In this document: piece after piece, positions 375 through 28,328 of the stretch
Numbering within the stretch: the stretch's first letter is position 1
Layout: every line of letters starts with the position of its first letter
Source: a virus
Reading direction: 5' to 3' (one strand)
DNA: 34,616 nucleotides
Virus record (IMG/VR): IMGVR_UViG_3300042356_000424
Span: 1 to 34,616 of that record
Program-made: the position numbers and the translations under genes
The notes under the pieces: generated by a model
Database searches by the model: none
What the model was told of the DNA's origin: nothing
Seen by the model: the letters and a program-made list of their open reading frames with translations, nothing else

Positions 375-1066
375 GTATTTGTAATCCTAATAACTTCTCT
401 TTCAATGTCACCCTGAAACAATGATACATAATTCCATGGTTGAATGCATCCTATCCAAGCTTCATGGTCATATCTAAAGTAATCAGATATATACATCATT
501 TTACTAATTGTACTAACTTCCCCTATAATAGATTCATTTTTGTGAGGTAGTTTGGGTAATTTTTTAATATGATTAGAGTTAGCCCACCAAAAGTTTCCAC
601 TATAATGAGGCCATTGACTAATCATTCCTTCGCTATACAATATACCAACAGTACAATAACCGGTGTCTAATAGCTCTATACATTTTTTATAGTTTACTAT
701 ATTATAGTACTCTAATAGAAACCGCCAGTCGTGTATTGGTTTAACGTTATTTTTGCTAGCACCTTTAACATGAAAATACAAAATATAAGAATCACTATCA
801 TTATCAATAGTTTCTTTAAGAAATTTTAATGTAGGATATTCATAGTGTTCAATACTATTACTAGTATGTACCATTTCTACATTATGATATTGATTTGCTA
901 GTTCTTGTATTGTATTAAATATAGCCAGCTTACCATTAACACATAGATATATTTTATCTGCTAATTCTAACAAACCAGTTTCTTTAAGCAAAGAAAATTG
1001 ATGATTAAAAATCATCAAACTATCTGGTGTATCAATGATATGACTGAATATTTTTATTTTATGCAT
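371..1066 (-). CDS. Glycosyltransferase-like protein
   Basis: The protein is 231 aa from the ATG at 1066. The frame stays open further upstream only because it reads through tRNA-Asn (giving the familiar spurious peptide SPIAQSVERL), so that extension is rejected. Visible motifs are YFHVKGAS near residue 97 and HYSGNFWWANSNHIKKLP near residue 155. The latter is a hallmark of a family of uncharacterised glycosyltransferase-like proteins found next to polysaccharide and phage glycan genes. No signal peptide or membrane segment is seen. It starts five bases after the CCA of tRNA-Asn, and its best Shine-Dalgarno (GGGGAG) lies inside the tRNA. It is coupled to the downstream oxygenase gene by ATGA. 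The activity is inferred from family resemblance only. Confidence 0.6.
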   Translation of the reverse strand: MHKIKIFSHIIDTPDSLMIFNHQFSLLKETGLLELADKIYLCVNGKLAIFNTIQELANQYHNVEMVHTSNSIEHYEYPTLKFLKETIDNDSDSYILYFHVKGASKNNVKPIHDWRFLLEYYNIVNYKKCIELLDTGYCTVGILYSEGMISQWPHYSGNFWWANSNHIKKLPKLPHKNESIIGEVSTISKMMYISDYFRYDHEAWIGCIQPWNYVSLFQGDIEREVIRITNT

Positions 1067-1071
1067 AAATT

Positions 1072-1147
1072 TGGCTCCCCTACGTGGGCTCGAACCACGG
1101 ACATTTTGATTAACAGTCAAACGCTCTACCGACTGAGCTATAGGAGA
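1072..1147 (-). tRNA. tRNA-Asn(GTT)
   Basis: The minus strand folds as a full cloverleaf. The acceptor stem TCTCCTA/TAGGGGA has one G-T pair. The anticodon loop is CTGTTAA, the T-arm is CGTGG-TTCGAGC-CCACG, the discriminator is G and CCA is encoded. The 3' acceptor strand also provides the likely Shine-Dalgarno of the next gene. Confidence 0.96.
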
Positions 1148-1154
1148 ATAATTT

Positions 1155-1229
1155 TGGTGCCCCCACCATGACTTGAACACGGGACCTTCGCCTTACAAGG
1201 GCGCTGCTCTACCACTGAGCTATAAGGGC
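1155..1229 (-). tRNA. tRNA-Thr(TGT)
   Basis: Acceptor GCCCTTA pairs with TGGGGGC using two G-T pairs. The anticodon loop CTTGTAA gives anticodon TGT, the T-arm is CCGTG-TTCAAGT-CATGG, and the discriminator A is followed by encoded CCA. Seven bases separate it from tRNA-Asn. Confidence 0.93.
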
Positions 1230-1254
1230 GACTTTTATTTAATAGTATTAAACA

Positions 1255-1815
1255 CTAACTTAATAAAATTCTACTATGTTTTGGAACACCTGCTAACAAA
1301 TATTCCATTTGGTCAGCAAGTATTGTTCTATGTTGTAGAATCATATTTTCGTAGTGATTTGGGACATAAGGTGCGTATAGTAATTCCATGCGTACTTCCT
1401 TTAAACTCTTATGTCCTTTTTTACTGTTACAATCTTTACAAGCTGTAACAACGTTCATCCAAGTGTTTTCACCACCTTTGCTACGTGGAACAATGTGGTC
1501 ACGACTTAATAGATGATAGTTTGGAAACTGTTCGCCGCAATAAGCACATACATGACGGTCACGACCAAACAATGTTTTATTAGTTAATGCAACACATGAG
1601 TGTTTGTATGGATTGAATCCATGACCTTTGATGGCAATGATACTAGATGCTTCTAAGTAACTTAATGTACCATCATTTTGTATGCCACCGCGGTATTTAG
1701 CCACAATATTCCCCATTGACCATGCGATGGCATCTTTTGCTTTATAGGTAATTGCGTCATCATTTGATATCCATTGCCGGGGAACGCCCGAGATATCTAG
1801 TGCTAGAACAGCCAT
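1255..1815 (-). CDS. HNH endonuclease, free-standing, inside the tRNA array
   Basis: The protein is 186 aa. The ATG at 1815 is chosen because AAGGAG lies 6 bases upstream; a longer frame begins nine codons earlier without a ribosome site. The C-terminal half has a classic zinc-HNH domain: CAYCG, then LSRDHIVPRSKGGENTWMN (the DH catalytic pair and the asparagine), then ACKDCNSKKG, giving two CxxC zinc knuckles. Genes like this are usually homing endonucleases or packaging-associated nickases. Its place between two tRNA genes and away from terminase genes favours a mobile homing endonuclease. It ends in TAG, showing that TAG is a normal stop here because read-through would enter tRNA-Thr. Confidence 0.88.
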   Translation of the reverse strand: MAVLALDISGVPRQWISNDDAITYKAKDAIAWSMGNIVAKYRGGIQNDGTLSYLEASSIIAIKGHGFNPYKHSCVALTNKTLFGRDRHVCAYCGEQFPNYHLLSRDHIVPRSKGGENTWMNVVTACKDCNSKKGHKSLKEVRMELLYAPYVPNHYENMILQHRTILADQMEYLLAGVPKHSRILLS

Positions 1816-1862
1816 GTAGTACTCCTTTTCTGTTATTATCACTAATTGTATTTAATGCCGAG

Positions 1863-1937
1863 TGGTGGGTCCTGCAGGAATTGAACCCACATCCCGAAGT
1901 TCGAAGCATCGTATTCTATCCATTGAACTAAGGACCC
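1863..1937 (-). tRNA. tRNA-Arg(TCG)
   Basis: Acceptor GGGTCCT/AGGACCC is fully paired. The anticodon loop CTTCGAA gives TCG, the anticodon stem has one T-T mismatch, the T-loop is TTCAATT, and A plus CCA is encoded. It would read CGA codons. Confidence 0.93.
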
Positions 1938-2096
1938 GATAAAAGAGGGAGCCTAACTATCTTAGTGTTAATAAGCCTCGTTAGATTGTCTCGTATAGGC
2001 AAGTTTATACACCTATCAATCATACTATAGTGTCATCACAGTAACCCCACTGTGACTAGATTGACAGGGACTCAAACCTATCGTCTATCCCATAAC
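1938..2096 (-). other. Unassigned spacer inside the tRNA array with hairpins
   Basis: About 160 bases lie between tRNA-Arg(TCG) and tRNA-Gln with no tRNA and no convincing frame. A perfect 7-bp hairpin (TCACAGT/ACTGTGA) occupies 2036-2055. A second 6-bp stem (GATAGG/CCTGTC) with a TTTGAGTC loop, resembling a T-arm, lies at about 2063-2082. It may be a decayed tRNA or a small structured RNA; I cannot decide. Confidence 0.35.
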
Positions 2097-2170
2097 TGGC
2101 AGAGGGTACAAGAATCGAACTTGTGATCTCGGAATCAAAATCCGATGTTATGCCATTTAACTAACCCCCA
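2097..2170 (-). tRNA. tRNA-Gln(TTG)
   Basis: The anticodon stem TCGGA/TCCGA encloses loop TTTTGAT (anticodon TTG). The T-arm is ACAAG-TTCGATT-CTTGT, the discriminator is G and CCA is encoded. The first acceptor pair is T-T, in keeping with the weak first pair known for tRNA-Gln. Confidence 0.93.
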
Positions 2171-2190
2171 ATAATCTTGCTAAATAATTG

Positions 2191-2823
2191 ATGTTTAACA
2201 TTACAAAAACCCCAATCTTAATTATTTCATCTCCTAGAACAGGAAGTTCAGTGTTAGGTTCATATTTACAAACTTTGTATGACGTACCTTACTTTAAAGA
2301 ACCTGATTACACAGGCGGTAAGGAAATGACTGACTTTTACGATTATTTCTCTCAGTCAAAAAACTTTATTCTTAAATTTCATTATATACATTTGAATAGA
2401 TACAGAAGTGATATAACCAATTATCTTATTGAAAATGCATATAAAATAAGAATTAGACGAAAAAATATTGTTGAACAAATTGCAAGTTTTTACATTGCAA
2501 CTGAAAGAGGTTTTAAGTGGCATTTTAGAAACACAAATCAATTAAATTTAGTTGACACTCTTAACATTGATATAGCAAAAATCAAACAAAATATTTTATA
2601 TATTAAATACGCAAATTATAAATTAAACTCAGCACCTATTAATTTTGATTTAGACCTATATTACGAAGACTTACCTGAGATGACTGATGCAGGTTATTAT
2701 ATTGTTCCTAAACCTTCTAACTATAATGAGTTGTTATCTACGATAACAGAATTGGTACCGCCACCTAGATTTGAACCAGGGACCTACGCCTTATCAAGGC
2801 GGTGCTCTACCACTGAGCTATAG
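2191..2823 (+). CDS. Sulfotransferase-like protein, running into an antisense tRNA
   Basis: The frame is about 210 aa from the ATG at 2191. The N-terminus ILIISSPRTGSSVLGSYL matches the 5'-phosphosulfate-binding loop of PAPS-dependent sulfotransferases. A later RIRRKNIVEQIASFYIA resembles the 3'-phosphate-binding segment of that fold. It is the only plus-strand gene in the tRNA array. Its last ~20 codons lie over the antisense of tRNA-Ile and the stop is inside that tRNA, so the true C-terminus may have been lost or replaced when the tRNA moved in. No Shine-Dalgarno is seen; GCTAAATA, a weak late-promoter-like box, ends four bases before the ATG. Confidence 0.6.
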   Translation: MFNITKTPILIISSPRTGSSVLGSYLQTLYDVPYFKEPDYTGGKEMTDFYDYFSQSKNFILKFHYIHLNRYRSDITNYLIENAYKIRIRRKNIVEQIASFYIATERGFKWHFRNTNQLNLVDTLNIDIAKIKQNILYIKYANYKLNSAPINFDLDLYYEDLPEMTDAGYYIVPKPSNYNELLSTITELVPPPRFEPGTYALSRRCSTTEL

Positions 2824-2827
2824 CGGT
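2753..2827 (-). tRNA. tRNA-Ile(GAT)
   Basis: Acceptor ACCGCTA pairs with TGGCGGT. The anticodon loop TTGATAA gives GAT, the T-arm is CCTGG-TTCAAAT-CTAGG, and A plus CCA is encoded. The 3' end of the sulfotransferase-like frame overlaps it on the opposite strand. Confidence 0.95.
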
Positions 2828-2831
2828 GAAT

Positions 2832-2906
2832 TGGTGGATGTAAGTAGATTTGAACTACTGACCTACTCCGTATGAAGGAGTTGCACTACCACTGTGCTAT
2901 ACATCC
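2832..2906 (-). tRNA. tRNA-Met(CAT)
   Basis: Acceptor GGATGTA/TACATCC and T-arm AGTAG/CTACT are fully paired. The anticodon loop TTCATAC gives CAT and CCA is encoded. It lacks clear initiator features. An elongator Met or a lysidine-modified Ile identity cannot be told apart by eye. Confidence 0.93.
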
Positions 2907-2907
2907 A

Positions 2908-2984
2908 TGGGGTGCTTGATGGGATTTGAACCCACGCATATCGGAATCACAATCCGAGGTCTTAACCGCTTGACGACAAGCACC
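2908..2984 (-). tRNA. tRNA-His(GTG)
   Basis: Acceptor GTGCTTG/CAAGCAC carries an extra G at position -1 opposite discriminator C, the known identity element of tRNA-His. The anticodon loop is TTGTGAT and CCA is encoded. One base separates it from tRNA-Met. Confidence 0.96.
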
Positions 2985-2986
2985 AT

Positions 2987-3078
2987 TGGTAGAAACGGTG
3001 AGATTCGAACTCACGGGACCATTGCTGATCCGTCTGATTTCAAGTCAGGTGCATTAAACCGGGCTCTGCCACGTTTCC
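2987..3078 (-). tRNA. tRNA-Ser(TGA)
   Basis: This is a 92-nt class II tRNA with a long variable arm. Acceptor GGAAACG pairs with CGTTTCT. The anticodon loop CTTGAAA gives TGA, the T-arm is GTGAG-TTCGAAT-CTCAC, and A plus CCA is encoded. Confidence 0.95.
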
Positions 3079-3086
3079 ATATTATG

Positions 3087-3162
3087 TGGTAGGACCAGGG
3101 CGGTTCGAACGCCCGACCAACGGATTAAAAGTCCGCTGCTCTACCTACTGAGCTATGGTCCT
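3087..3162 (-). tRNA. tRNA-Lys(TTT)
   Basis: Acceptor AGGACCA/TGGTCCT and anticodon stem CGGA/TCCG are well paired. The loop CTTTTAA gives TTT, the T-arm is GGGCG-TTCGAAC-CGCCC, and A plus CCA is encoded. Confidence 0.96.
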
Positions 3163-3168
3163 ATATAT

Positions 3169-3245
3169 TGGTGCGACCGGAAGGACTTGAACCTCCGACT
3201 CCCTATTTCGTAGACAGGTACTCTAATCCACTGAGTTACGGTCGC
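3169..3245 (-). tRNA. tRNA-Arg(ACG)
   Basis: Acceptor GCGACCG/CGGTCGC is fully paired. The anticodon loop CTACGAA gives ACG, which would normally be edited to ICG. A plus CCA is encoded. Its first two bases are shared with the 21-bp inverted repeat that lies immediately upstream. Confidence 0.95.
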
Positions 3246-3326
3246 ATTCTAAAGCACACATAGTTCACCCTAGTCAACAGGGTTGCCCTCTTGGCCTTAT
3301 TTTCCACTATGTGTGCTTTAGAATGC
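3244..3326. repeat. Perfect 21-bp inverted repeat with a 41-nt loop
   Basis: The arms are 3244-3264 and 3306-3326 and are perfectly complementary over 21 bp (core CTAAAGCACACATAG). The 41-nt loop can form nested short stems (CCCT/AGGG). The left arm ends in the first two bases of tRNA-Arg(ACG), so a minus-strand transcript would place a long double-stranded stem directly at the 5' end of the tRNA array. There is no T-tract, so it is not a simple terminator. Confidence 0.85.
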
Positions 3327-3472
3327 CGTGTATTACTACACGACATGATAGGGTCAATACCCTACCCAGTAGTCTTACTAACATGTTGTCACCATGCTTT
3401 CATGTATACTGTCCGCCCATTCTATACATTTTGCGCTGTATTACGGCTCTCGTTGCCTATTCACGCTATCTA
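3327..3472 (-). other. Non-coding leader with short hairpins
   Basis: No convincing gene is seen. Small perfect stems occur at CGTGT/ACACG (from 3327) and AGGGT/ACCCT (about 3350-3363). The stretch seems less AT-rich than its surroundings and lies between the 55-aa gene and the tRNA array on the same strand. It may be part of the array's transcript. Confidence 0.35.
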
Positions 3473-3640
3473 TCAATCAGTATAAGTTAGTTGGTTAACC
3501 TTCTTAGTAGCCTCATGATAGACTTTAGCACGTTGAAATTTATCCTCTATCAACTGTGCTACTTGTTCCCTAGTCAAAACATGTTTGTTAAACCAATCAT
3601 GCTTTGCTTCAGAAGTGTTGTATTGTATCTCTTTGTCCAT
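3473..3640 (-). CDS. Small hypothetical protein, 55 aa
   Basis: The frame runs from ATG at 3640 to TGA at 3473-3475. It begins MDKEIQYNTSEAKHDWFNKH and continues as a charged, probably helical protein (LTREQVAQLIEDKFQRAKV). GAGAGGAA lies about 12 bases upstream of the ATG. The composition looks like a genuine small phage protein and the frame fills most of the gap between the terminator at 3668-3703 and the structured leader. I do not recognise a family. Confidence 0.6.
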   Translation of the reverse strand: MDKEIQYNTSEAKHDWFNKHVLTREQVAQLIEDKFQRAKVYHEATKKVNQLTYTD

Positions 3641-3667
3641 TTATTGTCAAATTCCTCTCTGTAAAAG

Positions 3668-3703
3668 CAAAAACCCCTGAGACTTCTTAGTTTCCCAGGG
3701 GTT
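3668..3703 (-). terminator. Intrinsic (Rho-independent) terminator
   Basis: On the minus strand AACCCCTG pairs with CAGGGGTT across a 16-nt loop and is followed by a run of T (GGGGTTTTTG). It would end the transcript starting at the sigma70 promoter near 3933-3961. Confidence 0.85.
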
Positions 3704-3932
3704 AGATAAATTCGTTATGATGTTAACTTGTTACCTAGTCCCCGGGCTTCTTTCTTGGTTATCATTTGAGCCACGAATACTTGTTGGATATGCTGGTACA
3801 AAGGATACACTGGCTAATGACTGCCATTGTCCCATGTGCTTTAGCGTTTTACAAGTTTTATTCATCATAGTCTTTTATTTAGTCCTGGTTGTAAATTAGT
3901 GCGATTAAACACCTTTTCTCAATTCATGCTGA
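3704..3932 (-). ncRNA. Short transcription unit: small RNA or 45-codon peptide
   Basis: This stretch is bounded upstream by a near-consensus promoter and downstream by an intrinsic terminator, predicting a transcript of about 250 nt. On the minus strand it contains a 45-codon frame starting with tandem ATGs (MMNKTCKTLKHMGQWQSLAS, with AGGA 14 bases upstream). A 15-codon GTG-started frame precedes it. The composition is not clearly protein-like, so a regulatory RNA is equally plausible. No known RNA family is recognised. Confidence 0.4.
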
Positions 3933-3961
3933 AGTATAGCATAGATAGGAATTGATGTCAA
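3933..3961 (-). promoter_or_regulatory. Near-consensus sigma70 promoter
   Basis: On the minus strand TTGACA (6/6) at 3956-3961 and TATACT (5/6) at 3933-3938 are separated by exactly 17 bases. This is the strongest host-type promoter seen in the window and would suit early or middle transcription. Confidence 0.85.
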
Positions 3962-3974
3962 CTTTTTTATTTTA

Positions 3975-4274
3975 TTATAGGTAAATCAGTAACGCAACTG
4001 CAATTGCGTATTCTTTTTCATGGCTAATGCTAATTTTAATATTAGAGTTGTTTACTACATATGGACTTCCTGTAGTACTGTTTAGTATAGTCATTCTTCG
4101 GTGACCGGTTGCTTTGAATATGGCTTCTTTGGCAGCCCATCTTCCTGCAATATATTGTATTTTGTTTGTTGCTTTGTTGAACTCAACTATTTCAGATTCA
4201 GATAGTATTTTATTGGCTAGTTTAGATAAATTATTTTTGAATCTAGAAACCTTAACGATATCACAACCCAACAT
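3975..4274 (-). CDS. acpS: Holo-[acyl-carrier-protein] synthase
   Basis: This enzyme moves 4'-phosphopantetheine from CoA to the serine of an acyl carrier protein, in the cytoplasm. The three family motifs are present: MLGCDIVKVSRF at the N-terminus (the D binds Mg), GRWAAKEAIFKATGHRR near residue 43 (the WAAKEA signature), and ISISHEKEYAIAVAL at the C-terminus. At 99 aa it is shorter than the usual ~125, but all motifs remain. It is divergent from the operon that encodes an ACP, its likely substrate. A possible promoter lies upstream at 4303-4332. Confidence 0.88.
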   Translation of the reverse strand: MLGCDIVKVSRFKNNLSKLANKILSESEIVEFNKATNKIQYIAGRWAAKEAIFKATGHRRMTILNSTTGSPYVVNNSNIKISISHEKEYAIAVALLIYL

Positions 4275-4302
4275 GATTACTACATAGACCAGTTAATAAC
4301 AA

Positions 4303-4332
4303 AGTATATTTTAAAATATTAGACATTCACAA
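4303..4332 (-). promoter_or_regulatory. Probable promoter of the holo-ACP synthase gene
   Basis: On the minus strand TTGTGA (4327-4332) and TATACT (4303-4308) are 18 bases apart. The transcript would start about 20-25 bases before the acpS ATG. The -35 box is weak. Confidence 0.5.
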
Positions 4333-4406
4333 ATTATACACTATATCAGAATCAAGGTCAATTCTTGTTTGCCCGTAATTCAATTATTATCAGCCTTAAA
4401 AGTAAC

Positions 4407-4414
4407 GATAAATA
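4407..4414 (+). promoter_or_regulatory. T4-type late promoter box, 5 bases before the radical SAM ATG
   Basis: GATAAATA matches the T4 late consensus TATAAATA at 7 of 8 positions. The spacing of five bases to ATG would place transcription start on the A of the start codon, giving a leaderless message. No Shine-Dalgarno is present. Confidence 0.5.
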
Positions 4415-4419
4415 ACTGT

Positions 4420-5313
4420 ATGATAGACACTTATTACGAATTAGAACCCAAAGACAATCACTTCTATAGCATCTTTGTCGACGTCACTCACAAATGTAAT
4501 ATGGAATGTGCCAACTGTTATGCACACATAAGAACGGTCCCGGACTTAGATGTAACTAAGTTATATGAAGTTCTAGCACAACTACCTAACAAGGCTGAGA
4601 TTAGACTAATAGGCGGTGAACCTACAGTAAGATCAGACTTAATTGAAATAGTAGATAACATTAAACGCCTGGGGCATCGCCCTACAATGATGACAAATGG
4701 CCTGATGCTAGCTAGGCCAGGTTATGCTAGAGAATTAGCAGACGCAGGTATGCGTAGTATATATATTAGTATGAATGGTGCAGACGACAACTCTATCTAC
4801 AAAATTATGGATGGTGGTGGGTCATGGGCTGAAAGAAAAGTCACAGCACTTAAGGCATGTCTAGATGTAAAAATGAATGTTAACGTTGGTGTTATCTTAC
4901 AAAAAGGTGTAAACGATAATACACCTAAGAGACTTTACGAACTAGTCAAAGAATCACAAGGTAAAGCAATTCTTCGATTTAGGAATGTAGGACAAGTAGG
5001 ACGCTATAGTTTAGAGAAACACCAAAACTGGACGTGGGATGAAATGGTTACATTAGTGTGTAATCAATTAGGCATAGATAAAGAATGGGCGCTGACACAA
5101 ACTGAAATTAACGGATGCCGAGAAAAAAATGTAATATTTTTTCCTGTTGAAGCTGATAAAAAGTATACTACCAGTTGGATTAAAATTACAGACTGGAGTC
5201 CTGAAGATAGTGACTTTCCGGATCCAGGCAATGATAGACGAGGTAGGCTAACTCAGGATTTTAAACTTGCTCCATTTTTTGAACACGTAAAAAAATACGA
5301 AAATCAATTTTAA
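4420..5313 (+). CDS. Radical SAM enzyme
   Basis: The protein is 297 aa from the ATG at 4420. The frame is open further upstream to a TTG, but family alignment begins near FVDVTHKCNMECANCYAH. That segment carries the CxxxCxxC motif that binds the [4Fe-4S] cluster, followed by IRLIGGEPTVRSDL, the SAM-binding GGE motif. MRSIYISMNGAD and the later GQVGRYSLE fit the rest of the partial barrel. There is no clear cysteine-rich SPASM tail. It resembles MoaA/PqqE-type enzymes broadly; the reaction is not predictable. It is the first gene of an operon with desaturase, ACP and an unrecognised protein, suggesting a role in modifying an acyl or small-molecule product. Confidence 0.85.
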   Translation: MIDTYYELEPKDNHFYSIFVDVTHKCNMECANCYAHIRTVPDLDVTKLYEVLAQLPNKAEIRLIGGEPTVRSDLIEIVDNIKRLGHRPTMMTNGLMLARPGYARELADAGMRSIYISMNGADDNSIYKIMDGGGSWAERKVTALKACLDVKMNVNVGVILQKGVNDNTPKRLYELVKESQGKAILRFRNVGQVGRYSLEKHQNWTWDEMVTLVCNQLGIDKEWALTQTEINGCREKNVIFFPVEADKKYTTSWIKITDWSPEDSDFPDPGNDRRGRLTQDFKLAPFFEHVKKYENQF

Positions 5314-5331
5314 ACAACTGCGGTGAATATA

Positions 5332-6135
5332 ATGAAAATATTAAATTTTTGGAATAGCTTGGGGGCGAATCTCAGACGGGTTACCATACCAGCACACATT
5401 TTGACGTTGGTTGGTATAGCATCTGTGTTCACTGGTGCTACCAATTGGCTCTGGTTAATGATAATATACCCTGCATGGTTTCTATTCGGCCATATAGGAT
5501 ATGGTATCTTTGTTCACAGATACTATTGTCATAAATCTTTTGAGACATATACCTGGATAGCTAGATTGGGCGCATTTTTCGGTTTATTGTCAGGTGCTGG
5601 CAGTGCAATGAACGTGAAAGTTATACACGTAGGATATCATCATCCGCATAGCGATACAGAATTAGATCCGCATTCACCTATAAAAGGTCTTTGGTGGAGC
5701 TATCTATTATGGCAGAACCACAAATTTGACCTGGCCAAAGACAAAATATGGGCTGTTAAAGACATGATGAAAGACCCATATCTTAAAGTTTTTCATAATC
5801 ATAACTATAAAATTTATTGGGCATGCTGGTTGCTGTTAGCGTTAATAGATTGGAGACTTGCAGTGTTCATTGTCAGTGCTGCCACAGTTCTAGAGTTTCA
5901 TTTGCTGTCTATAGCCAATACATTCGGTCACTACAAACACAAATGGAGTTATCAGAACTACCAGGGTAGAGACAATAGTCAAAATATCACCTGGCTTAAC
6001 TGGATTACACTAGGGCACGGCCTTCATAATAATCATCATGCTCAGCCAGGCAATTATAATCATGCTCATAAAAAAGGCGAATTTGATACAGCAAAATGGT
6101 TCATTCCGTTAATAGAAAAGAGTAAAACAAAATGA
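5332..6135 (+). CDS. Membrane fatty acid desaturase (acyl-CoA/acyl-lipid delta-9 type)
   Basis: The protein is 267 aa from ATG 5332, preferred over GTG 5323 because GGTGA lies 6 bases upstream. It has the three histidine boxes of di-iron membrane desaturases: HRYYCH (about residues 62-67), HVGYHH (99-104) and HGLHNNHH near residue 235. Between them are hydrophobic spans (for example HILTLVGIASVFTGA and CWLLLALIDWRLAVFIVSAA). Such enzymes insert a double bond into an acyl chain using O2 and electrons from ferredoxin, cytochrome b5 or rubredoxin-like donors. Its stop overlaps the ACP start (ATGA). The ACP neighbour raises the possibility that acyl-ACP or an ACP-derived lipid is the substrate. 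Confidence 0.88.
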   Translation: MKILNFWNSLGANLRRVTIPAHILTLVGIASVFTGATNWLWLMIIYPAWFLFGHIGYGIFVHRYYCHKSFETYTWIARLGAFFGLLSGAGSAMNVKVIHVGYHHPHSDTELDPHSPIKGLWWSYLLWQNHKFDLAKDKIWAVKDMMKDPYLKVFHNHNYKIYWACWLLLALIDWRLAVFIVSAATVLEFHLLSIANTFGHYKHKWSYQNYQGRDNSQNITWLNWITLGHGLHNNHHAQPGNYNHAHKKGEFDTAKWFIPLIEKSKTK

Positions 6136-6368
6136 AAGATGCAGAAAATAAAGTAAGAGCTATTATAGCTAAACATTACAGAATAAGTGAAGATGAAGTT
6201 AAAAACGATAGTTCGTTTATAAAAGACTTTAAAGGTGACAGTTTAGATATCATTGAACTGGTACTGATTCTAGAAGATAAGTATGGTATAGAAGTCCCAG
6301 AAGAAATCGCCGAAGAACTAGACACTGTGCAAAAATTATATGACTATATCAATTCTTTAAATGTTTGA
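6132..6368 (+). CDS. Acyl carrier protein
   Basis: The protein is 78 aa, the usual ACP length. The acceptor serine lies in FKGDSLDIIELVLILEDKYG, the canonical DSL motif at the start of helix II, and the protein is strongly acidic. The N-terminus (MKDAENKVRAIIAKHYRISE) and the IEVPEEIAEELDTV segment match fatty-acid-type ACPs. Its ATG overlaps the desaturase stop and its stop overlaps the next start, so all are coupled. It would carry an acyl or aminoacyl group after activation by the acpS product encoded on the other strand. Confidence 0.93.
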   Translation: MKDAENKVRAIIAKHYRISEDEVKNDSSFIKDFKGDSLDIIELVLILEDKYGIEVPEEIAEELDTVQKLYDYINSLNV

Positions 6369-6990
6369 TACTATGAACACTACAAGATTTATCACCCCAG
6401 ACGAAATTGATTACTTACGTGTCACGTACGCCGTTGGCCGCAGCGCATTAGGGACAGTAATTACAGAAGATTCGCAGGAAAAGATCATTAGCACTACCAA
6501 ACAGAAAATGATAGAAGGTCTGATGCACGTTGCGGTAGTGTTTGATGACGAAAGTAAACCGATAGCATCCTATCAAGCGTTTGAAGTTCCTCAATTACTT
6601 GCATGGCGTTGGAATGGTCTTAGTAGTGTAGCACAGCACAATCACTACAATAAAACTGCTCCTATTATTGCACCTGCACTAGACATGATAATGAGTCTAA
6701 TGGAGTCTAAAGGATACTATAAATTCTGGTCTTTAAATAAAGAGTCTGCACATAACATACGATATAAAATTATGTGCAAACACAGCACCCTATTGAATAG
6801 GTATAATTGCTACGATGAGTTAATAATTCCTAAAGGAGAAACTTCTGGAATACCATTGTTTGATGCATACAGATCACCTACACAATCCTATGATCTACTA
6901 GTGCGATTGTTTGTCTTAGATCAAAAGTACAGAGTTGAACAACTTAGAAAACTCGGATACGACGATTACAAAGGCACATTGGATATATAA
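6361..6990 (+). CDS. Unrecognised protein, possible acyltransferase of GNAT-like fold
   Basis: The protein is 209 aa from ATG 6361 (which overlaps the ACP stop), or 205 aa from ATG 6373; neither has a clear Shine-Dalgarno, consistent with coupling. I recognise no firm motif. The alternation of strands and helices (MHVAVVFDDESKPIASYQAF, then YKFWSLNKESAHN, then LLVRLFVLDQKYRVEQ) is compatible with an acetyltransferase-like fold. The location directly after an ACP makes an acyl-ACP-dependent acyltransferase, such as the N-acyl amino acid synthases, worth testing. It is the last gene of the plus-strand operon. Function is a guess. Confidence 0.55.
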   Translation: MFDTMNTTRFITPDEIDYLRVTYAVGRSALGTVITEDSQEKIISTTKQKMIEGLMHVAVVFDDESKPIASYQAFEVPQLLAWRWNGLSSVAQHNHYNKTAPIIAPALDMIMSLMESKGYYKFWSLNKESAHNIRYKIMCKHSTLLNRYNCYDELIIPKGETSGIPLFDAYRSPTQSYDLLVRLFVLDQKYRVEQLRKLGYDDYKGTLDI

Positions 6991-6995
6991 TATCG

Positions 6996-7020
6996 TCGGG
7001 TGTTATAGTCTATCACCCGA
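6996..7020. terminator. Stem-loop between convergent genes
   Basis: TCGGGTG (6996-7002) and CACCCGA (7014-7020) form a perfect 7-bp stem with an 11-nt loop just after the plus-strand operon and before the converging minus-strand gene. There is no strong T-tract, so termination is likely but not certain. Confidence 0.55.
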
Positions 7021-7030
7021 GAAGTGATGA

Positions 7031-7333
7031 TTATTCAGCATTCAATGAATCATCAATCAAATATATTTGATTCTCGTCATTATAGACAGCACGTTGTGAT
7101 GCTTTTTCTTGCATATATGGGTCATTTATAAACTCTTCCCGATCTTCTAAAGTTGTGAATATAAACGTTTGCTTTAACGTCAAATCATCAACTCTTGTAG
7201 TTGCACCTGTCAGTTTCCCAGTAGCAACATATTTTTCTCTTATATATTCAATGTGGGATGCGGGCAAAGTATCAATAAACCATGGCACGTCTGCACTAAG
7301 TTTGATAAAAATTTGAGTAATTTCTAGAGCCAT
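7031..7333 (-). CDS. Hypothetical protein, 100 aa
   Basis: The frame begins MALEITQIFIKLSADVPWFI and ends IYLIDDSLNAE. AAGGAAAA lies about 8 bases before the ATG and a late-promoter-like box (CATAAATA, 7355-7362) lies further upstream, so it can be expressed independently of the binding-protein gene. No signal peptide, membrane span or known motif is seen. The mixed composition with several aromatic residues suggests a small folded cytoplasmic protein. Family not recognised. Confidence 0.65.
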   Translation of the reverse strand: MALEITQIFIKLSADVPWFIDTLPASHIEYIREKYVATGKLTGATTRVDDLTLKQTFIFTTLEDREEFINDPYMQEKASQRAVYNDENQIYLIDDSLNAE

Positions 7334-7354
7334 AATATTTTCCTTATTTTATAC

Positions 7355-7362
7355 TATTTATG
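7355..7362 (-). promoter_or_regulatory. T4-type late promoter box
   Basis: CATAAATA on the minus strand matches TATAAATA at 7 of 8 positions. It lies 21 bases before the ATG of the 100-aa gene, leaving room for the AAGGAAAA ribosome site. Confidence 0.5.
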
Positions 7363-7365
7363 CCT

Positions 7366-8262
7366 TTATTCCTTAGGAATTCCTGCAGTTAGTTTTTCCC
7401 AATTAATTTTATTTGTTTGATTCACTGAATCTAATTGTTTGTACGGAGTCTTTACTAATTGACCAAAGTCAATTTCACAGATTGATTTAGGTTTTTCAGT
7501 TAGTGCATCACTTAATATCTTGTGCAGTTCTTGCCTAGTAGCATCGTCAACTGTTTTATTAACAAAGAAATAGTGACCTACAGTGATATTCTCTAATCCT
7601 TTAATTTTTAGTGATTGGAATGTTTGGTGACCGTTGACGTTGCGAGTTCCTGTCACACCTACAACTTTAACATCATTAGTAAATCTTGCAGTGACACTGG
7701 GACCCATCCAATCCACGCTACCATCAATGTGTCCTCCTAGCATATCAGTTGTTGCCTCAGGTGTTCCCTTATAAGGTACTTCGGTTATGCTAAATTCAGG
7801 ATTTTCACGTTTAAGTGATCTTGTTATTAATGAAGTGATAGAACCTGGATTGACACCAATTGTTATATCACGATGTTGAACATCAGATAATTTGTTTATC
7901 TTTTTGGAAAAAATTGCTAGCGGCTGTGCGTTACAAAACGGAGTAACCAATTCAAAATCGTCTGTATGATGACTATCTTTATATAGTAACGGTCTAATAT
8001 AAAAACTACTTGTAGTAGCTAGTACTGATAATTCTTTAGAATCTTTTACGGCAAGTGCGGCAACTGCGCCTCCAGCGCCTGGTCTATTTTGAAACACAAA
8101 TTGATATTTGTTTTGTTGAGCATTTGCACTCTCTATTACCGCACGAACCATATTTGATTGTGAACTGGCTGGAGAGAAAGGCCAGTATATTGGAACAATT
8201 TTTTGTGCGAAGGCTGAAGCTGTAATGCACATCATCAGCAAGATTGTGAATATTTTTTTCAT
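7366..8262 (-). CDS. Bug/TctC-family periplasmic solute-binding protein
   Basis: The 298-aa protein starts with a signal peptide (MKKIFTILLMMCITASAFAQ, cleavage likely after AFA or AQ). Family motifs are FQNRPGAGGAVAAL near residue 60 and VPYKGTPEATTDMLGGHIDG near residue 160, both diagnostic of Bug/TctC receptors. These bind carboxylates in the periplasm and deliver them to tripartite tricarboxylate transporters; in betaproteobacteria they are hugely expanded and often orphan. No transporter membrane gene is nearby, so it would have to use host partners or have another role. Length is close to the usual ~320. The 3' end of the upstream gene contains a TATAAATA box. A host-derived auxiliary gene is likely. 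Confidence 0.85.
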   Translation of the reverse strand: MKKIFTILLMMCITASAFAQKIVPIYWPFSPASSQSNMVRAVIESANAQQNKYQFVFQNRPGAGGAVAALAVKDSKELSVLATTSSFYIRPLLYKDSHHTDDFELVTPFCNAQPLAIFSKKINKLSDVQHRDITIGVNPGSITSLITRSLKRENPEFSITEVPYKGTPEATTDMLGGHIDGSVDWMGPSVTARFTNDVKVVGVTGTRNVNGHQTFQSLKIKGLENITVGHYFFVNKTVDDATRQELHKILSDALTEKPKSICEIDFGQLVKTPYKQLDSVNQTNKINWEKLTAGIPKE

Positions 8263-8282
8263 TTTTTCATTTTTTCTATAAG

Positions 8283-9503
8283 TTAAGTTTTAAACAGTAT
8301 GTCTGTAGAAGCAATATTTATATCTTCAACCGGGTGTGGTTTAAAATTATTTTCATGCCCAATTCTCCAGTAATGATAAAATCTGACAAACCCGTCATTT
8401 TCATCATGTTTATACTTTGAATCTATTTTACTAGTAAACAAATTTAAATCAGACTCTACCTGTTGAACAATTCTTTCTTTCCCATGTAACTTTATAAGCC
8501 AATCATCCATTTGAAAGCCACCCTTGAAACCCATACCTTGTTTAAGGGCTTGCCAGTTTTTATGATAGTCTTTAAAAGCAGGATAGATACACGGGATAAT
8601 AGAACGTTGCCAATTGCTTCCCCTTTCAACGCTAGCATTGAATGCAAGAGGTTTAGACCTGTCCCATAACATGGCTTTTACGTGAGCATTCTCGGGTCTG
8701 TAATTCCAACGGCATACTTCATGCGCTTGCTTAATCATTATCTCAGGTAAATCAGGAGAATAATAAAACATTATAGACTCTACGTTAGTATATTTTTCTT
8801 TAAAATGAGGGCATATAATGTTTACTAAAGGGTCTGCAACAACGGTATATAAGTTTCCCGACTCTCCCCTACATATTATAGGTTTATCAATGCCATATAC
8901 TACTCCTATTTTTTTACCTGCTTCTGCTAAATTTTTGATGTGAGTGAACTTATCTAGTGAATGTCTAGTAGCCCCTGAAAAATGTATCCAGTGTGAGGCT
9001 GACTCATAGATCCATTCATCTGTTTTCATCTCTAAGATATCTTCAAAGTAATCATGTATAGAAAGTTTAATGTTAGGATGAGTTTTAGAAATACTATCTA
9101 AGAAAGGTAACTGTGATACTATAGTTTCAGTAATAGTGTTATTTGCGGATTTGTCATTAAGATTTACTTGCCAATTTTTTAATCCACTAATAGGGGCGGC
9201 CGCAACTATTTCATCTATGCGAATGTTGTTGTTTAAAAAACTTTTTACAACGTTGGTACTGTCAGCACCGCCGCTAGCCATTACAATAACATAATCAAAC
9301 TGTTCTCGGATTTGCCTAGCACGTTCTGCATACAACATCTCTAGTGACACGGGTGGCTCAATTGTCCAATCATACTTGTCAAAAATTTCGTTATTAAAAT
9401 GCCAAGTGATGTCCGCCTTAGTGGGATTAGCATACAATATAGCCTGTAATTTGTTGTAGAATATATGATGTCCTACTTTATAATAACCTAATTTTGTGTT
9501 CAT
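8283..9503 (-). CDS. PP-loop ATP pyrophosphatase family protein (first copy)
   Basis: The protein is 406 aa. The ATP-binding PP-loop is clear: YVIVMASGGADSTNVV, with SGGADS at residues 77-82. This places it in the adenine nucleotide alpha hydrolase superfamily, whose members adenylate a substrate and release pyrophosphate (asparagine synthetase, QueC, ThiI, PAPS reductase). There is no N-terminal glutaminase Cys2, so it is not a complete asparagine synthetase. The N-terminal ~70 residues (MNTKLGYYKVGHHIFYNKLQ) recall the short substrate domain of these enzymes. A second PP-loop gene lies at 10979. The substrate is unknown; an amide-forming or thiolation step is possible. Confidence 0.75.
   Translation of the reverse strand: MNTKLGYYKVGHHIFYNKLQAILYANPTKADITWHFNNEIFDKYDWTIEPPVSLEMLYAERARQIREQFDYVIVMASGGADSTNVVKSFLNNNIRIDEIVAAAPISGLKNWQVNLNDKSANNTITETIVSQLPFLDSISKTHPNIKLSIHDYFEDILEMKTDEWIYESASHWIHFSGATRHSLDKFTHIKNLAEAGKKIGVVYGIDKPIICRGESGNLYTVVADPLVNIICPHFKEKYTNVESIMFYYSPDLPEIMIKQAHEVCRWNYRPENAHVKAMLWDRSKPLAFNASVERGSNWQRSIIPCIYPAFKDYHKNWQALKQGMGFKGGFQMDDWLIKLHGKERIVQQVESDLNLFTSKIDSKYKHDENDGFVRFYHYWRIGHENNFKPHPVEDINIASTDILFKT
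8315..8322 (-). promoter_or_regulatory. T4-type late promoter box upstream of the binding-protein gene
   Basis: A perfect TATAAATA on the minus strand sits inside the last codons of the PP-loop gene, about 52 bases before the ATG of the Bug/TctC gene. It falls over codons for Asp-Ile-Asn-Ile, so it may be chance. Confidence 0.4.
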
Positions 9504-9522
9504 GTGTTGTACAACCTGTAGT

Positions 9523-10176
9523 CTACAAGAACAACATATTGTTGTTCTTAAATATCTCTTTCCAATATCCCTGTTTAGGAACTAGCGCCCATAGTTTAGT
9601 ATTTTCAAAAACTATAAGTGTCTTTGCTTGTCTAGCTTCACTCAGTGCGGTAGCCACGCCGGGGTATTTACTATAAAAATCATCACCAATTAACAATTCA
9701 GAATCGGAACGAAATTTCTCTATGTCATAAATCATATCATCATATGTATGCGATGCGTCTATAAAGGTGAGATTATATGTCTTTGATTTTTCAAAATCTT
9801 TACTGAGCATTGGGTATACATTTAAATTATTATATATTTCATCACCTATACAAAACTTAAAAGCTTCATGCCAGTCACTGGTCTTAGCAATTTCTTTTGC
9901 AGAGTTAAACATATCAATACTACCCGATACAAAGTTCATTTGTTCAATAGAAAGATAAAAAAACTTTTCAGAATTTACCATCTTGAAACTGTCAACTACA
10001 TCAAGACTAACAGACGGTTTTTTACCTTTATAAAGAGCCGCAGTTGAACCACCTAGGAAACAACCCACTTCTAATATAGAACCATTTTCAGGAACAAAGC
10101 CGGCTAATGACGAAAGAATATGTAATTCCATAGGATACATCCAGCTAGGAATAGTAATGTCTAATGTTGTTTTCAT
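9523..10176 (-). CDS. SAM-dependent methyltransferase (class I fold)
   Basis: The protein is 217 aa. Motif I is GSILEVGCFLGGSTAAL (residues 33-49), the glycine-rich SAM-binding loop. VSLDVVDSF supplies the acidic residue of strand 2, and YNLTFIDASHTYDDMIYDIE plus LLIGDDFYSKYPGVA match the DASH/GDD pattern of the Methyltransf_24/CmcI-like family. These enzymes often methylate small molecules, for example O-methylation in sugar and antibiotic pathways. The gene starts three bases after the stop of the 2OG oxygenase gene, within one run of redox and transferase genes. The acceptor is unknown. Confidence 0.78.
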   Translation of the reverse strand: MKTTLDITIPSWMYPMELHILSSLAGFVPENGSILEVGCFLGGSTAALYKGKKPSVSLDVVDSFKMVNSEKFFYLSIEQMNFVSGSIDMFNSAKEIAKTSDWHEAFKFCIGDEIYNNLNVYPMLSKDFEKSKTYNLTFIDASHTYDDMIYDIEKFRSDSELLIGDDFYSKYPGVATALSEARQAKTLIVFENTKLWALVPKQGYWKEIFKNNNMLFL

Positions 10177-10179
10177 TTC

Positions 10180-10902
10180 TTATAATCCGTAATATTCACT
10201 AATGCCCACACGTTTAGCCCATTCAGTATTAAATTTACCATCAATTCGCAGACTCCAAGAAACATAATCACTATGTCCTTTGCTACAATGCCAATTAATT
10301 GTGTTGAACACCATTGCCCTGCCAGAAATTTCATGTACTGTTCCTAGTTCATCTTGAAGTAGAATTTTCTTAGAGAACTTACCAGTCAACCATATAAACA
10401 TATCACGCCTATCTAGATTGATATCACCATAATCTGTATGAGTTGCTGTTATTTGGTTGGGTTCATTAATCCAAAACATTGTTCTACCATATTCATCAAA
10501 ACATTTTTGTTGCTCTATCCAATCAAATAAAAATTTAAAATCTTGATATGGGTATAAATTAACACTATGTTCATTTAGATGTTTATAGGGATAAGTTTTA
10601 GGATACCCTTTATTCCCCCTCAATAACAACTGTGAGCCTAGAGTTATAGTACCTTTAAGTTTAGTATACCAATTTAATTCAGGTATACTAAATTCCGGAT
10701 AATCATTTCTATACTTTTCTCTTTCCTCTAGGAATCCAGGCAAATGGTTCTTCAACAAAGAAAATTGTGGGGTGTACGATGGCTCAATGTATTTTGAATT
10801 TTTTGCTATGTTAAAAGAAATTTGTTCTTCTAATTCATCAAACGAACTCATATCTAGATATTCAGACAGATCAACGTACATTTTTTCATTAATTAATTTC
10901 AT
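10180..10902 (-). CDS. Probable Fe(II)/2-oxoglutarate-type dioxygenase
   Basis: The protein is 240 aa. The C-terminal half has the pattern of a 2OG oxygenase: ITATHTDYGD gives an HxD iron motif (H155, D157), and FNTINWHCSKGHSDYVSWSL gives a distal histidine (H205 or H210) followed by an arginine at residue 219 in SLRIDG, the usual 2OG anchor. WLTGKFSKKILLQDELGTVH would be the intervening strands of the barrel. The N-terminal 100 residues match nothing I know. The start overlaps the GNAT-remnant frame (ATGA). It probably hydroxylates a small molecule or acyl group, as it sits among other tailoring genes. Confidence 0.65.
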   Translation of the reverse strand: MKLINEKMYVDLSEYLDMSSFDELEEQISFNIAKNSKYIEPSYTPQFSLLKNHLPGFLEEREKYRNDYPEFSIPELNWYTKLKGTITLGSQLLLRGNKGYPKTYPYKHLNEHSVNLYPYQDFKFLFDWIEQQKCFDEYGRTMFWINEPNQITATHTDYGDINLDRRDMFIWLTGKFSKKILLQDELGTVHEISGRAMVFNTINWHCSKGHSDYVSWSLRIDGKFNTEWAKRVGISEYYGL

Positions 10903-10982
10903 TTTATTTCTCTTTTTACTAGTTTCATTAGTGTCTCATATCCTATTTTTTTCATAATGTGTTCCTGCATGACTTGATTCAT
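10899..10982 (-). pseudogene. C-terminal fragment of a GNAT acetyltransferase, 27 codons
   Basis: The frame starts MNQVMQEHIMKKIGYETLMK and ends with LVKREIK. It aligns clearly with the C-terminus of the GNAT protein at 12777-13214 (NDLMQQHIAKSIGYKTVMNL followed by VSRPI): identical M-Q-x-H-I, K-x-I-G-Y-x-T-x-M-x-L-V-x-R-x-I pattern. Only the last strand-helix portion of the fold is left, so it cannot be an enzyme. Its ATG overlaps the stop of the PP-loop gene and its stop overlaps the start of the oxygenase gene, both as ATGA, so it may be kept as a coupling cistron. The rest of the gene was presumably lost by recombination. Confidence 0.7.
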
Positions 10983-11896
10983 TGATTGATTGAAAGTCTT
11001 TTTACTGCGTCACTATATGGTTCTAAATATTCCCCATTCCACTTTTTTGTAAATTCTTCAAAAATTTTAATATTAGGGTGTTGCATAATTTCTGAATTAT
11101 ATATCTGTTCGTAGCCTGTTAACTTTATACGGTTTTTAGTCACAAAGTCATATATTGGCATTTTGAAGTTAGAACCGTTGTTAAAGACATACGACTTTGT
11201 AGAGTTGCTACCTGTTTTGCCCGGGAATTGTCCTGTCCCTAATTTAACTATACTTGGATCTAACAAAAATGATAACATCATTTCGGGGGTATAAGATAGT
11301 AAAAAGGGACAACCGTTGACATTATATTTTTTATAATATCTCTGTAGGCCATGAATGTATTCTAGCTCCTCTAATACCCATATTCCGTTGTATCTGTCTT
11401 TCTCATACCGCATATACGGCGGATCATTACCTAATAAAGTAAATCCATCTAATTGACTGGCCACATGCATAGTAGCCGGTAGTGCAAATGAACAACATGA
11501 TACTGACTCGGCTATCTCAACGTTCTTACCAGAATTTACAAACTCATGAAAATTTAACTTAAAAATGACAGGATCTATGTTTTTTGCTTTACAGAATTCA
11601 TATGCATAAACAATGTCATGTTGATTCAATACGTTCCCGTCATTATCGGTGAGTTCAATAATCACCGGATCAAAGTCCATCTTAAGATGCAATAACACTT
11701 CACAAACGTACTGACTATCTAAACCACCACTATACAATACTTGAAACTTACCTGTTTTGTTTGCATAAACGTATTCTACTGCATCTAATGTTTCTTCAAA
11801 ATATGTTTTTACTTTACGTGTAGGAGGGTCTATGTTTACATGCCAGGTATCACCGGTACCGGTACCAAATAGATAATTATTTTTAGTAAGTTCCAT
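10979..11896 (-). CDS. PP-loop ATP pyrophosphatase family protein (second copy)
   Basis: The protein is 305 aa. GKFQVLYSGGLDSQYVCEVL carries the PP-loop, with SGGLDS at residues 56-61. VIIELTDNDGN and the acidic FCKAKNIDPVIF segments fit the alternating fold of asparagine-synthase-like and QueC-like enzymes. A cysteine pair (ESVSCCSFALP, near residue 135) is notable and might bind metal or act in sulfur transfer. There is no glutaminase domain. It overlaps the Rieske gene by 14 bases and is preceded by AAGAGAAA. Together with the paralogue at 8283 it suggests ATP-driven activation of a carboxylate or amide in the same pathway. Confidence 0.75.
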   Translation of the reverse strand: MELTKNNYLFGTGTGDTWHVNIDPPTRKVKTYFEETLDAVEYVYANKTGKFQVLYSGGLDSQYVCEVLLHLKMDFDPVIIELTDNDGNVLNQHDIVYAYEFCKAKNIDPVIFKLNFHEFVNSGKNVEIAESVSCCSFALPATMHVASQLDGFTLLGNDPPYMRYEKDRYNGIWVLEELEYIHGLQRYYKKYNVNGCPFLLSYTPEMMLSFLLDPSIVKLGTGQFPGKTGSNSTKSYVFNNGSNFKMPIYDFVTKNRIKLTGYEQIYNSEIMQHPNIKIFEEFTKKWNGEYLEPYSDAVKRLSINQ

Positions 11897-12689
11897 TTTC
11901 TCTTAAAAAATCTCTATAATGTAATTTTGAAGATTCTAGGTTATGTTCGGGGAATCTAGTAATTAATTCTGCTTGTTTTTTATCTTGTGCCCACGCTGTT
12001 TCCCATACATGTTCATTTAGTTTCCAGGTAGAAGAACTATCTCGGTCCATATACTTATAAACGTGAACGGTTGAATTATCTCCGTCAGGTAATGCTACAG
12101 TTACAAACAATGATCCTTGTTGCCATTCAATCATTGTGTATGGATATACTGCTGACCATACTGCACCTTGAGCAACTGTTTGCACACTACCATTCTTATA
12201 GTATTTCCATTCAACATCAGTATCAGTAATACCGATCATGTCATATATACCTGAATGCACAGTTTGAATATGGTCTACATCTAAAAACAAATCCATGACA
12301 TTTTTGTAATTTGCTTTTACAACATCAATACGATTTTCCATTAGTACCATATTATCAAATTTATGAGTAATATCAAAATCTACTTGAGTAGTAAACAACA
12401 AACTGTTCCACTCATGTACTTTATCTGTTTCTAAAGGTTGTAAATTTTTACAATATTGTTCAGTTCTTCCAGATGTAATAGGGTATCCTTCTAAGGTAAA
12501 AGACCAATTATGATATGGACATACACGATTACCTACACCATGTTTAGTTGAAATTAAACTTTGTTGGTGTGGACAAATATTTGAAACCAAACTAATCTCG
12601 TCAGAATTTATAAGGACTTTTTCTTTGTCAAATTGCTCTAATACTTGATAAGAGTTAGGTAGTATGGATGCTTTATGCGACAGGAACAT
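11883..12689 (-). CDS. Rieske non-heme iron oxygenase, catalytic subunit-like
   Basis: The protein is 268 aa. The N-terminal Rieske [2Fe-2S] site is ICPHQ (C39, H41) and CPYHNWSF (C57, H60). The C-terminal catalytic domain has NYKNVMDLFLDVDHIQTVH, with the bridging D137/D139 and iron ligands H140 and H145. It is short for the family (often 350-450 aa), so the catalytic domain is compact. Such oxygenases hydroxylate, demethylate or desaturate small molecules using O2 and electrons from a ferredoxin/reductase; no reductase is nearby, but a rubredoxin is encoded at 14585. No Shine-Dalgarno is seen, and a TATAAATA box ends four bases before the ATG. Confidence 0.87.
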   Translation of the reverse strand: MFLSHKASILPNSYQVLEQFDKEKVLINSDEISLVSNICPHQQSLISTKHGVGNRVCPYHNWSFTLEGYPITSGRTEQYCKNLQPLETDKVHEWNSLLFTTQVDFDITHKFDNMVLMENRIDVVKANYKNVMDLFLDVDHIQTVHSGIYDMIGITDTDVEWKYYKNGSVQTVAQGAVWSAVYPYTMIEWQQGSLFVTVALPDGDNSTVHVYKYMDRDSSSTWKLNEHVWETAWAQDKKQAELITRFPEHNLESSKLHYRDFLRENGTY

Positions 12690-13235: not shown

Positions 13236-14012
13236 TTAAAATTTAAGAATAGGTATAAAAATTCTACAAGGGTCAAATTCATACCATTTTTTAGAAATAT
13301 TGTTACCAAAATCATAACTAGCTTGATTATAATGATGGTTATTGTGCCAACCATTGCCCCAATTTAACAATCCAAGTAAGAACACATTGCGTGAATTATC
13401 TTTTGTTTCAAAATTTCTGTAGCCGTAATTAGAATGACAGAATAAATTGACCATACCTTCTAAATGTAATGCTAATACGGTTGGTAATATAAACATCCAT
13501 AATAACAAATCAACACTAATTAACCCCACTATGATCCAAGACGTTATAATAATTACTTCATAATACTTACTTGTTTTTACTAGTAAAGGATCACGCAATA
13601 AGTCAACTGCATACTTATAATTAACATTGCTGGGGTCATGTTTTATTTCCCATCCAAAAAACGCATGCCATTTACCGTGAATTGGACTGTGTGAGTCTTT
13701 ATCTGTATCTGAGAATTTATGATGTAGGCCACGATGCACTGATGCCCACCATATAGGATGACCTTGACATGCCATTATACTAAAATACAATACAATATTC
13801 TTTGAATATGTACCTAACTCAATAGACTTATGTCCGGCCCATCTATGTAAACCTACATTGTTTCCTAATCCAGATATCAATATATATCCCATTAGAAAAT
13901 ATAATACATGTAACCATGTAAAACTAGTTATAAAGGGCATAAGTAAAACTCCCACATGAAGTGGAAGAAAAATGAGATAAAGAATACTTAATGGATTTTT
14001 ACTATTAGTCAT
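13236..14012 (-). CDS. Second membrane fatty acid desaturase
   Basis: The protein is 258 aa with the three histidine boxes of the delta-9 desaturase family: LHRWAGHKS (H56, H61), VHRGLHHKFSD (H93, H97, H98) and GNGWHNNHHYNQAS near residue 220. The N-terminal spans (ILYLIFLPLHVGVLLMPFIT, VLYFLMGYILISGLG) and a mid-protein hydrophobic stretch complete the membrane topology. It is clearly a diverged paralogue of the enzyme at 5332, not a recent copy. Its start overlaps the upstream GNAT gene by 8 bases. Two desaturases in one phage region suggest acyl chains with more than one double bond or two different substrates. Confidence 0.88.
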   Translation of the reverse strand: MTNSKNPLSILYLIFLPLHVGVLLMPFITSFTWLHVLYFLMGYILISGLGNNVGLHRWAGHKSIELGTYSKNIVLYFSIMACQGHPIWWASVHRGLHHKFSDTDKDSHSPIHGKWHAFFGWEIKHDPSNVNYKYAVDLLRDPLLVKTSKYYEVIIITSWIIVGLISVDLLLWMFILPTVLALHLEGMVNLFCHSNYGYRNFETKDNSRNVFLLGLLNWGNGWHNNHHYNQASYDFGNNISKKWYEFDPCRIFIPILKF

Positions 14013-28313: not shown

Positions 28314-28328
28314 TCTTTATCCTTTATC

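Follow-up and report, generated by a model that had tools for sequence, protein, structure and literature searches.

Among enzymes of the GNAT family, acyl donors bound to an acyl carrier protein (ACP) are used by the FeeM/Nas N-acyl amino acid synthases (PMC11631085, PMC8762209). In the case of JamB, a membrane desaturase has been described that works on a chain carried by an ACP, JamC (PMC4356899). Phage-carried lipid metabolism is also already known, the genes concerned having been read so far as single tweaks to host membranes. Here, we describe a variant on this metabolism, a module of about 3 kb found in the IMG/VR virus record IMGVR_UViG_3300042356_000424, a stretch of 34,616 bases (hereafter referred to as the window). 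The module has five genes, encoding a radical SAM enzyme, a membrane desaturase, an ACP, a GNAT-fold protein and an AcpS-type 4'-phosphopantetheinyl transferase. The set formed by the first four is conserved in a T4-like aquatic phage and a range of its relatives, and its product in infected cells is probably an unsaturated fatty amide or lipid. Searches of the open-licence literature retrieved phage desaturases and prophage acpP-fabF-fabG clusters, with no clear description of this module, although an earlier one may exist.

Gene content and organization of the module

Four of the genes occupy positions 4420–6990 of the plus strand, in the order radical SAM enzyme (4420–5313, 297 aa), membrane di-iron fatty acyl desaturase (5332–6135, 267 aa), ACP (6132–6368, 78 aa) and GNAT-fold acyltransferase-like protein (6361–6990, 209 aa, or 205 aa from 6373). 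The last three form a tightly packed trio at the 3' end. The desaturase and ACP genes overlap by 4 nt (ATGA), and the open reading frame (ORF) of the GNAT-fold protein overlaps the ACP gene by 8 nt if translation begins at ATG 6361, or begins 4 nt past the ACP stop codon if it starts at ATG 6373, the position matching the start of most homologues. The AcpS gene (3975–4274, 99 aa) lies on the minus strand, divergent from the ACP gene and 1.9 kb away from it (4274 to 6132), with the radical SAM and desaturase genes in between. The two genes are not, therefore, back to back in the window, as stated in the initial annotation. The remainder of the layout described there, with the radical SAM gene first and the desaturase coupled to the ACP, was borne out, and all four families that it named were confirmed by profile matches.

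The radical SAM enzyme matched PF04055 (E 8.7e-21) and carries the CX3CX2C motif. Its ORF opens at TTG 4369, an unlikely start, ATG 4420 being the most likely start, as in the homologues. The motif, CNMECANC, is the sole invariant set of cysteines in the family, and no auxiliary iron-sulphur cluster is therefore indicated. The desaturase, the ORF of which opens at 5323 with an ATG at 5332, matched PF00487 (E 1.3e-14), and its three His boxes (HRYYCH, HHPHSD and HNNHH) have histidine positions that are invariant across the viral relatives. The ACP scored 82 bits against TIGR00517, above the cut-off of 70.45 for this curated acyl_carrier equivalog, and also matched PF00550 (E 1.6e-12) and bacterial ACPs in the PDB (E 1e-16). 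The DSL serine is intact, as initially reported (GDSLD, with Ser37), and the DSL motif was kept in all 12 viral ACPs compared, the identity of which to the window ACP fell to 25%.

The product of 6361–6990, which had been left unrecognised, indeed gave no above-threshold match to Pfam, PHROGs or NCBIfam, but structure prediction assigned it to the GNAT (acyltransferase) fold. An AlphaFold2 model based on an alignment including distant relatives (17–41% identity) had a pLDDT of 85.2, a pTM of 0.83 and the strand and helix order of GNAT proteins; no conclusion was drawn from a model based on near-identical sequences (pLDDT 44). With Foldseek, the former yielded 327 PDB matches at E ≤ 0.001, the best of which was the GNAT protein SpeG (E 6.7e-8, 12% identity); the viral protein A0A6J5T9V4, itself uncharacterised, matched the model with a TM of 0.90. 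The Q/RxxGxG/A loop that binds the pyrophosphate of coenzyme A (CoA) is typical of GNAT proteins, without being universal; in the aligned family, the classical loop was not seen by eye between β4 and α3. A single pattern-limited scan, covering 84,980 genomes, revealed no cellular relative, and the product therefore looks like a virus-specific branch of the GNAT proteins.

Conservation across viral lineages

IMG/VR was scanned with each of the module proteins and the loci retrieved were annotated with profiles. The gene set was found to recur, rearranged and inverted, in about 10 viral lineages. The radical SAM, desaturase, ACP and GNAT genes occurred together in the window clade and at loci L026, L028, L029, L042, L083, L084, L039/L040 and L041. 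In the window clade (L002–L006), the order radical SAM, desaturase, ACP, GNAT was observed wherever the contig covered it. At L026, L028 and L029, the radical SAM gene and a gene for a 2-oxoglutarate (2OG)-dependent oxygenase lie on one strand, convergent with the ACP, desaturase and GNAT genes on the other; L027 has the same layout, but with a flavin/NAD reductase replacing the GNAT protein. At L042 and L084, the GNAT gene, two tandem desaturase genes and the ACP gene converge with the 2OG oxygenase and radical SAM genes, an arrangement also found, with a single desaturase, at L083. L039/L040 and L041 have the radical SAM, desaturase, GNAT and ACP genes, without that of the 2OG oxygenase, and L030–L032 have radical SAM genes with desaturase and/or 2OG oxygenase genes and no ACP. 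Overall, a gene for a 2OG oxygenase resembling Asp/Arg hydroxylases joins the module in most of the relatives.

The initial annotation had staked the module on its gene order being present in related phages. Gene content and neighbourhood were conserved in these phages, whereas exact order and strand varied. With such recurrence in about 10 viral lineages, the co-occurrence of the genes is more than chance, and the proposal of a compact acyl-carrier operon, rather than single auxiliary genes, is supported by the conservation of this multi-enzyme set. The pairwise identities of the four module proteins were correlated (Spearman 0.67–0.82), a correlation to which the relatedness of the phages would by itself contribute. 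The dN/dS ratio was 0.02–0.49 in all comparisons with unsaturated dS, and every module gene tested is under purifying selection. At L003, the dS of the radical SAM gene (1632–2522, compared with 4420–5310 of the window) reached 0.79, versus 0.10–0.22 for the neighbouring desaturase, GNAT and AcpS genes, a difference that suggests recombination within the cluster.

In contigs G009 and G010, a gene for the T4 capsid protein gp23 on the same contig establishes that the module is viral; in G026, gp23 was present and the ACP missing. In a collection of phage genomes, no relatives of the ACP or the GNAT-fold protein were found, the only desaturase match was a single distant one, in pelagiphage Mosig, and AcpS matches were limited to unannotated records, several of them short, which may be host DNA. 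The closest cellular desaturases found were only 28–33% identical, versus 42–98% among the viral ones, and no bacterial donor is therefore named.

Carrier activation and acyl supply

The window AcpS matched PF01648 (E 1.4e-14, 54.5 bits for a cut-off of 25) and TIGR00556 (73.5 bits, above the cut-off of 45.35), but scored 53.1 bits for the TIGR00516 acpS equivalog, the cut-off of which is 59.8, and it is therefore filed as an AcpS-like phosphopantetheinyl transferase rather than a proven AcpS equivalog. It aligned with the solved AcpS structures 3hyk and 1f80, and retains residues invariant in the AcpS alignment (G3xD5...R11F, W46AxKE50AxxKA and SxSH85). Among these residues are D5 and E50, a conserved Asp and Glu that are the predicted Mg2+ ligands, together with the KEA and SxSH motifs.

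The AcpS gene adjoins the radical SAM gene in three relatives from the window clade (L002, L003 and L006). It was absent from the 25-kb L004 record, and the L005 contig begins within the radical SAM gene. AcpS was not found in G008, G009 (115 kb), G011, G021–G023 or G024 (193 kb), but some of these are fragments, and the gene may lie outside them. G010 has an AcpS gene of its own some 120 kb away from the module, in the vicinity of clpX-, infC- and clpS-like genes. A 99-aa AcpS-like ORF lies directly between the desaturase and ACP genes, immediately upstream of the latter, at both L083 and L084; it is 35% identical to the window AcpS, with Pfam matches (E 0.07 and 0.006) below the cut-off. L015 has an AcpS (53% identical) that converges on a different ACP, and a third AcpS/ACP pair, about 1.3 kb apart, was found at L016. 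On this last, unrelated viral contig (8001–9826), a gene resembling that for adenylosuccinate synthetase (PurA/PurZ-like, by eye) lies between those for AcpS and the ACP. The association of carrier and activator is thus recurrent, in more than one arrangement, but optional, and AcpS is not part of the core.

An acyl-ACP synthetase or AMP-binding ligase (PF00501) was absent from every ACP-bearing record tested, the only such ligase being that of the G012/L030 record, which has no ACP, and a FabD-like malonyl-CoA:ACP transacylase was absent from the nine records tested. Acyl chains would therefore have to come from host synthesis, and carrier activation from the host in the many relatives in which AcpS was not found. 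The self-contained route independent of host AcpS envisaged in the initial annotation fails, since no acyl-ACP synthetase was found with any ACP, and AcpS was not found in several contigs, of up to 193 kb. A full type II fatty-acid synthase was likewise rejected, given the absence of FabD and the restriction of ketoacyl synthase (PF00109) to G024, a phage contig in which it lies far from the ACP module. Within this region (L053 4753–7848, at about 176.8–179.8 kb), the ketoacyl synthase gene adjoins a gene resembling heme oxygenase and two resembling bilin reductases (these two identified by eye).

Proposed function

We tentatively favour an acyl-tailoring role for this phage-borne module, in which an ACP-bound acyl chain would be desaturated and then transferred to an amine. 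The identities of the genes, the GNAT fold, the linkage and the key residues are established, whereas the chemistry is inferred. AcpS, encoded by the phage or, where the phage has none, by the host, would place 4'-phosphopantetheine on Ser37 of the phage ACP, onto which host fatty-acid synthesis would load a fatty acyl chain. The membrane desaturase would add a double (or triple) bond, most likely with the chain still on the ACP, and the GNAT-fold enzyme would take the chain off the ACP and attach it to an acceptor amine (an amino acid, polyamine or aminosugar). Either the acceptor or the chain may be modified by the radical SAM enzyme, joined in the relatives by the 2OG oxygenase. Two of these links have precedents, the transfer in the acyl-ACP-using FeeM and Nas enzymes and the desaturation in JamB and JamC. 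Several observations weigh against this scheme. No loading enzyme is encoded with the module, and the ACP gene of L039–L041 lies on the strand opposite the desaturase and GNAT genes. The best structural matches of the GNAT-fold protein are CoA-using acetyltransferases, and the 50 structural matches listed included neither FeeM nor LuxI. In its profile, the desaturase most resembles acyl-CoA and acyl-lipid desaturases, and its substrates may thus be lipids of the host or CoA esters.

The leading alternative is a general remodelling of membranes, in which the desaturase would act on host phospholipid or acyl-CoA, raising membrane fluidity, the ACP would merely increase or divert fatty-acid flux, and the GNAT-fold and radical SAM proteins would have unrelated roles. 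Phage desaturases are commonly interpreted along these lines (PMC7300359, PMC7678222), and freshwater pelagimyophages with fabF and a stearoyl-CoA desaturase have been reported (PMC7029224). It is also consistent with the profile match of the window desaturase to the acyl-CoA desaturase SCD1 (4ymk, E 1.9e-13) and with the ketoacyl synthase elsewhere on the G024 contig. However, it leaves unexplained the tight packing of the ACP, desaturase and GNAT genes, the correlated divergence of the proteins in many lineages and the near-constant radical SAM and 2OG oxygenase neighbours, and we consider it rather unlikely.

The acyl-tailoring reading has a broader and more doubtful extension, namely that T4-like phages run their own carrier-protein-based synthesis of an unsaturated N-acyl metabolite, signalling or membrane-active, with a dedicated ACP, an activating enzyme in some lineages and a new, virus-only GNAT family. 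The module is small, making the idea directly testable by expression.

Neighbouring genes and genomic context

The module is followed in the window by an auxiliary block on the minus strand (7366–12689), which accompanies it in several relatives. This block encodes a TctC-like protein (7366–8262), a periplasmic binding protein of the Bug type that apparently has a signal peptide and has relatives at L003, L005, L050 and L030, two PP-loop-like proteins (8283–9503 and 10979–11896), a methyltransferase-like protein (9523–10176), an otherwise unassigned protein that is 2OG-oxygenase-like by eye (10180–10902) and a Rieske oxygenase (11883–12689). A larger phage pathway, including the PP-loop ligase-like, Rieske and methyltransferase proteins and several desaturases, might build a complex acylated small molecule or a surface-glycan or lipid modification, the ACP module providing one acyl unit. 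The block co-occurs with the module at L003 and L005, where both PP-loop proteins (A and B), the Rieske oxygenase and extra desaturases recur, and subsets of it are found at L042, L084, L030 and L050, with AMP-ligase and SDR-like genes added in the L030 contig. Nevertheless, the extended block was not seen near the module at L026–L029 or L039–L041, and L050 has it without an ACP. We consider this pathway slightly less probable than membrane remodelling. The L030 locus itself (412–9537, in G012) has TctC-like, PP-loop-like, BKACE-like and SDR-like genes (the last two by eye), with genes for the AMP-binding ligase, a Rieske oxygenase, a radical SAM enzyme and a 2OG oxygenase, in a row, giving it the appearance of a larger biosynthetic cluster that has no ACP.

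Loose accumulation of singly captured genes, kept adjacent in a hypervariable region with no common pathway, would fit the variable gene order and the mosaic region evident from the raised dS of the L003 radical SAM gene, but is very unlikely, given that the set persists or re-forms in about 10 lineages with overlapping genes and correlated divergence.

A second desaturase (13236–14012, minus strand; PF00487, E 6.1e-12) overlaps a small unassigned ORF on the same strand (14005–14538), the two spanning 13236–14538. At L003 (9636–11739) and L041 (3132–4617), second desaturases adjoin distant members of the GNAT family (hmmsearch E 2e-8 and 1e-6, respectively), so that the pairing of desaturase and GNAT genes occurs twice in both contigs. 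The window also has 10 tRNA genes, numerous auxiliary genes and genes for a PAAR protein and a class Ia ribonucleotide reductase, the NrdA of which most resembles those of large Xanthomonas and Stenotrophomonas phages (58.7% and 53%). Positions 27360–31226 and 34213–34614 encode tandem paralogous repeat proteins, at least four in number and about 317 aa in length, which have motifs including DRITYA.DTATAS.RGPLS and a GYG variant and are possibly tail-fibre or adhesin beta-propellers. One 11/12 promoter-like site was found upstream of AcpS (4361–4333); promoter-like counts in the window equalled those in shuffled sequences and were not used as evidence.

Comparison with known systems

The window AcpS shares its profile family and conserved metal- and CoA-site residues with the AcpS group of phosphopantetheinyl transferases, from which it differs in being only 99 aa long and in its score below the equivalog cut-off. 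The acpP-fabF-fabG clusters of roseobacter prophages resemble the module in having a phage-associated ACP among fatty-acid genes, but are fragments of a host-like fab operon, for which no GNAT, AcpS or linked desaturase has been reported (PMC8224337). The JamABC and polyyne cassettes, like the module, have a membrane desaturase gene coupled directly to that of a dedicated ACP; at L042 and L084, two tandem desaturase genes come before the ACP gene. Membership of these terminal-alkyne/polyyne cassettes was rejected, as the phage ACP records tested have no JamA-like acyl-ACP synthetase (PF00501), and the GNAT-fold and radical SAM proteins stand in place of the polyketide synthase/nonribosomal peptide synthetase or thioesterase. 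In FeeM/FeeL-type N-acyl amino acid synthases, a GNAT-fold acyltransferase gene also shares an operon with an ACP gene; no sequence match to these synthases was found, use of acyl-ACP and of an amine acceptor by the phage enzyme is predicted, and the module includes membrane desaturase and radical SAM genes in addition. Finally, the desaturases of cyanophages, pelagiphages, polar phages and Lake Baikal phages are likewise phage-borne membrane enzymes with three His boxes, but they were reported as lipid auxiliary genes, and no module combining ACP, GNAT and radical SAM proteins was described in the sources searched. By comparison, a repeatedly conserved ACP-desaturase-GNAT-radical SAM set, accompanied in some phages by its own carrier-activating enzyme, suggests that phages steer acyl chains into a specific product.

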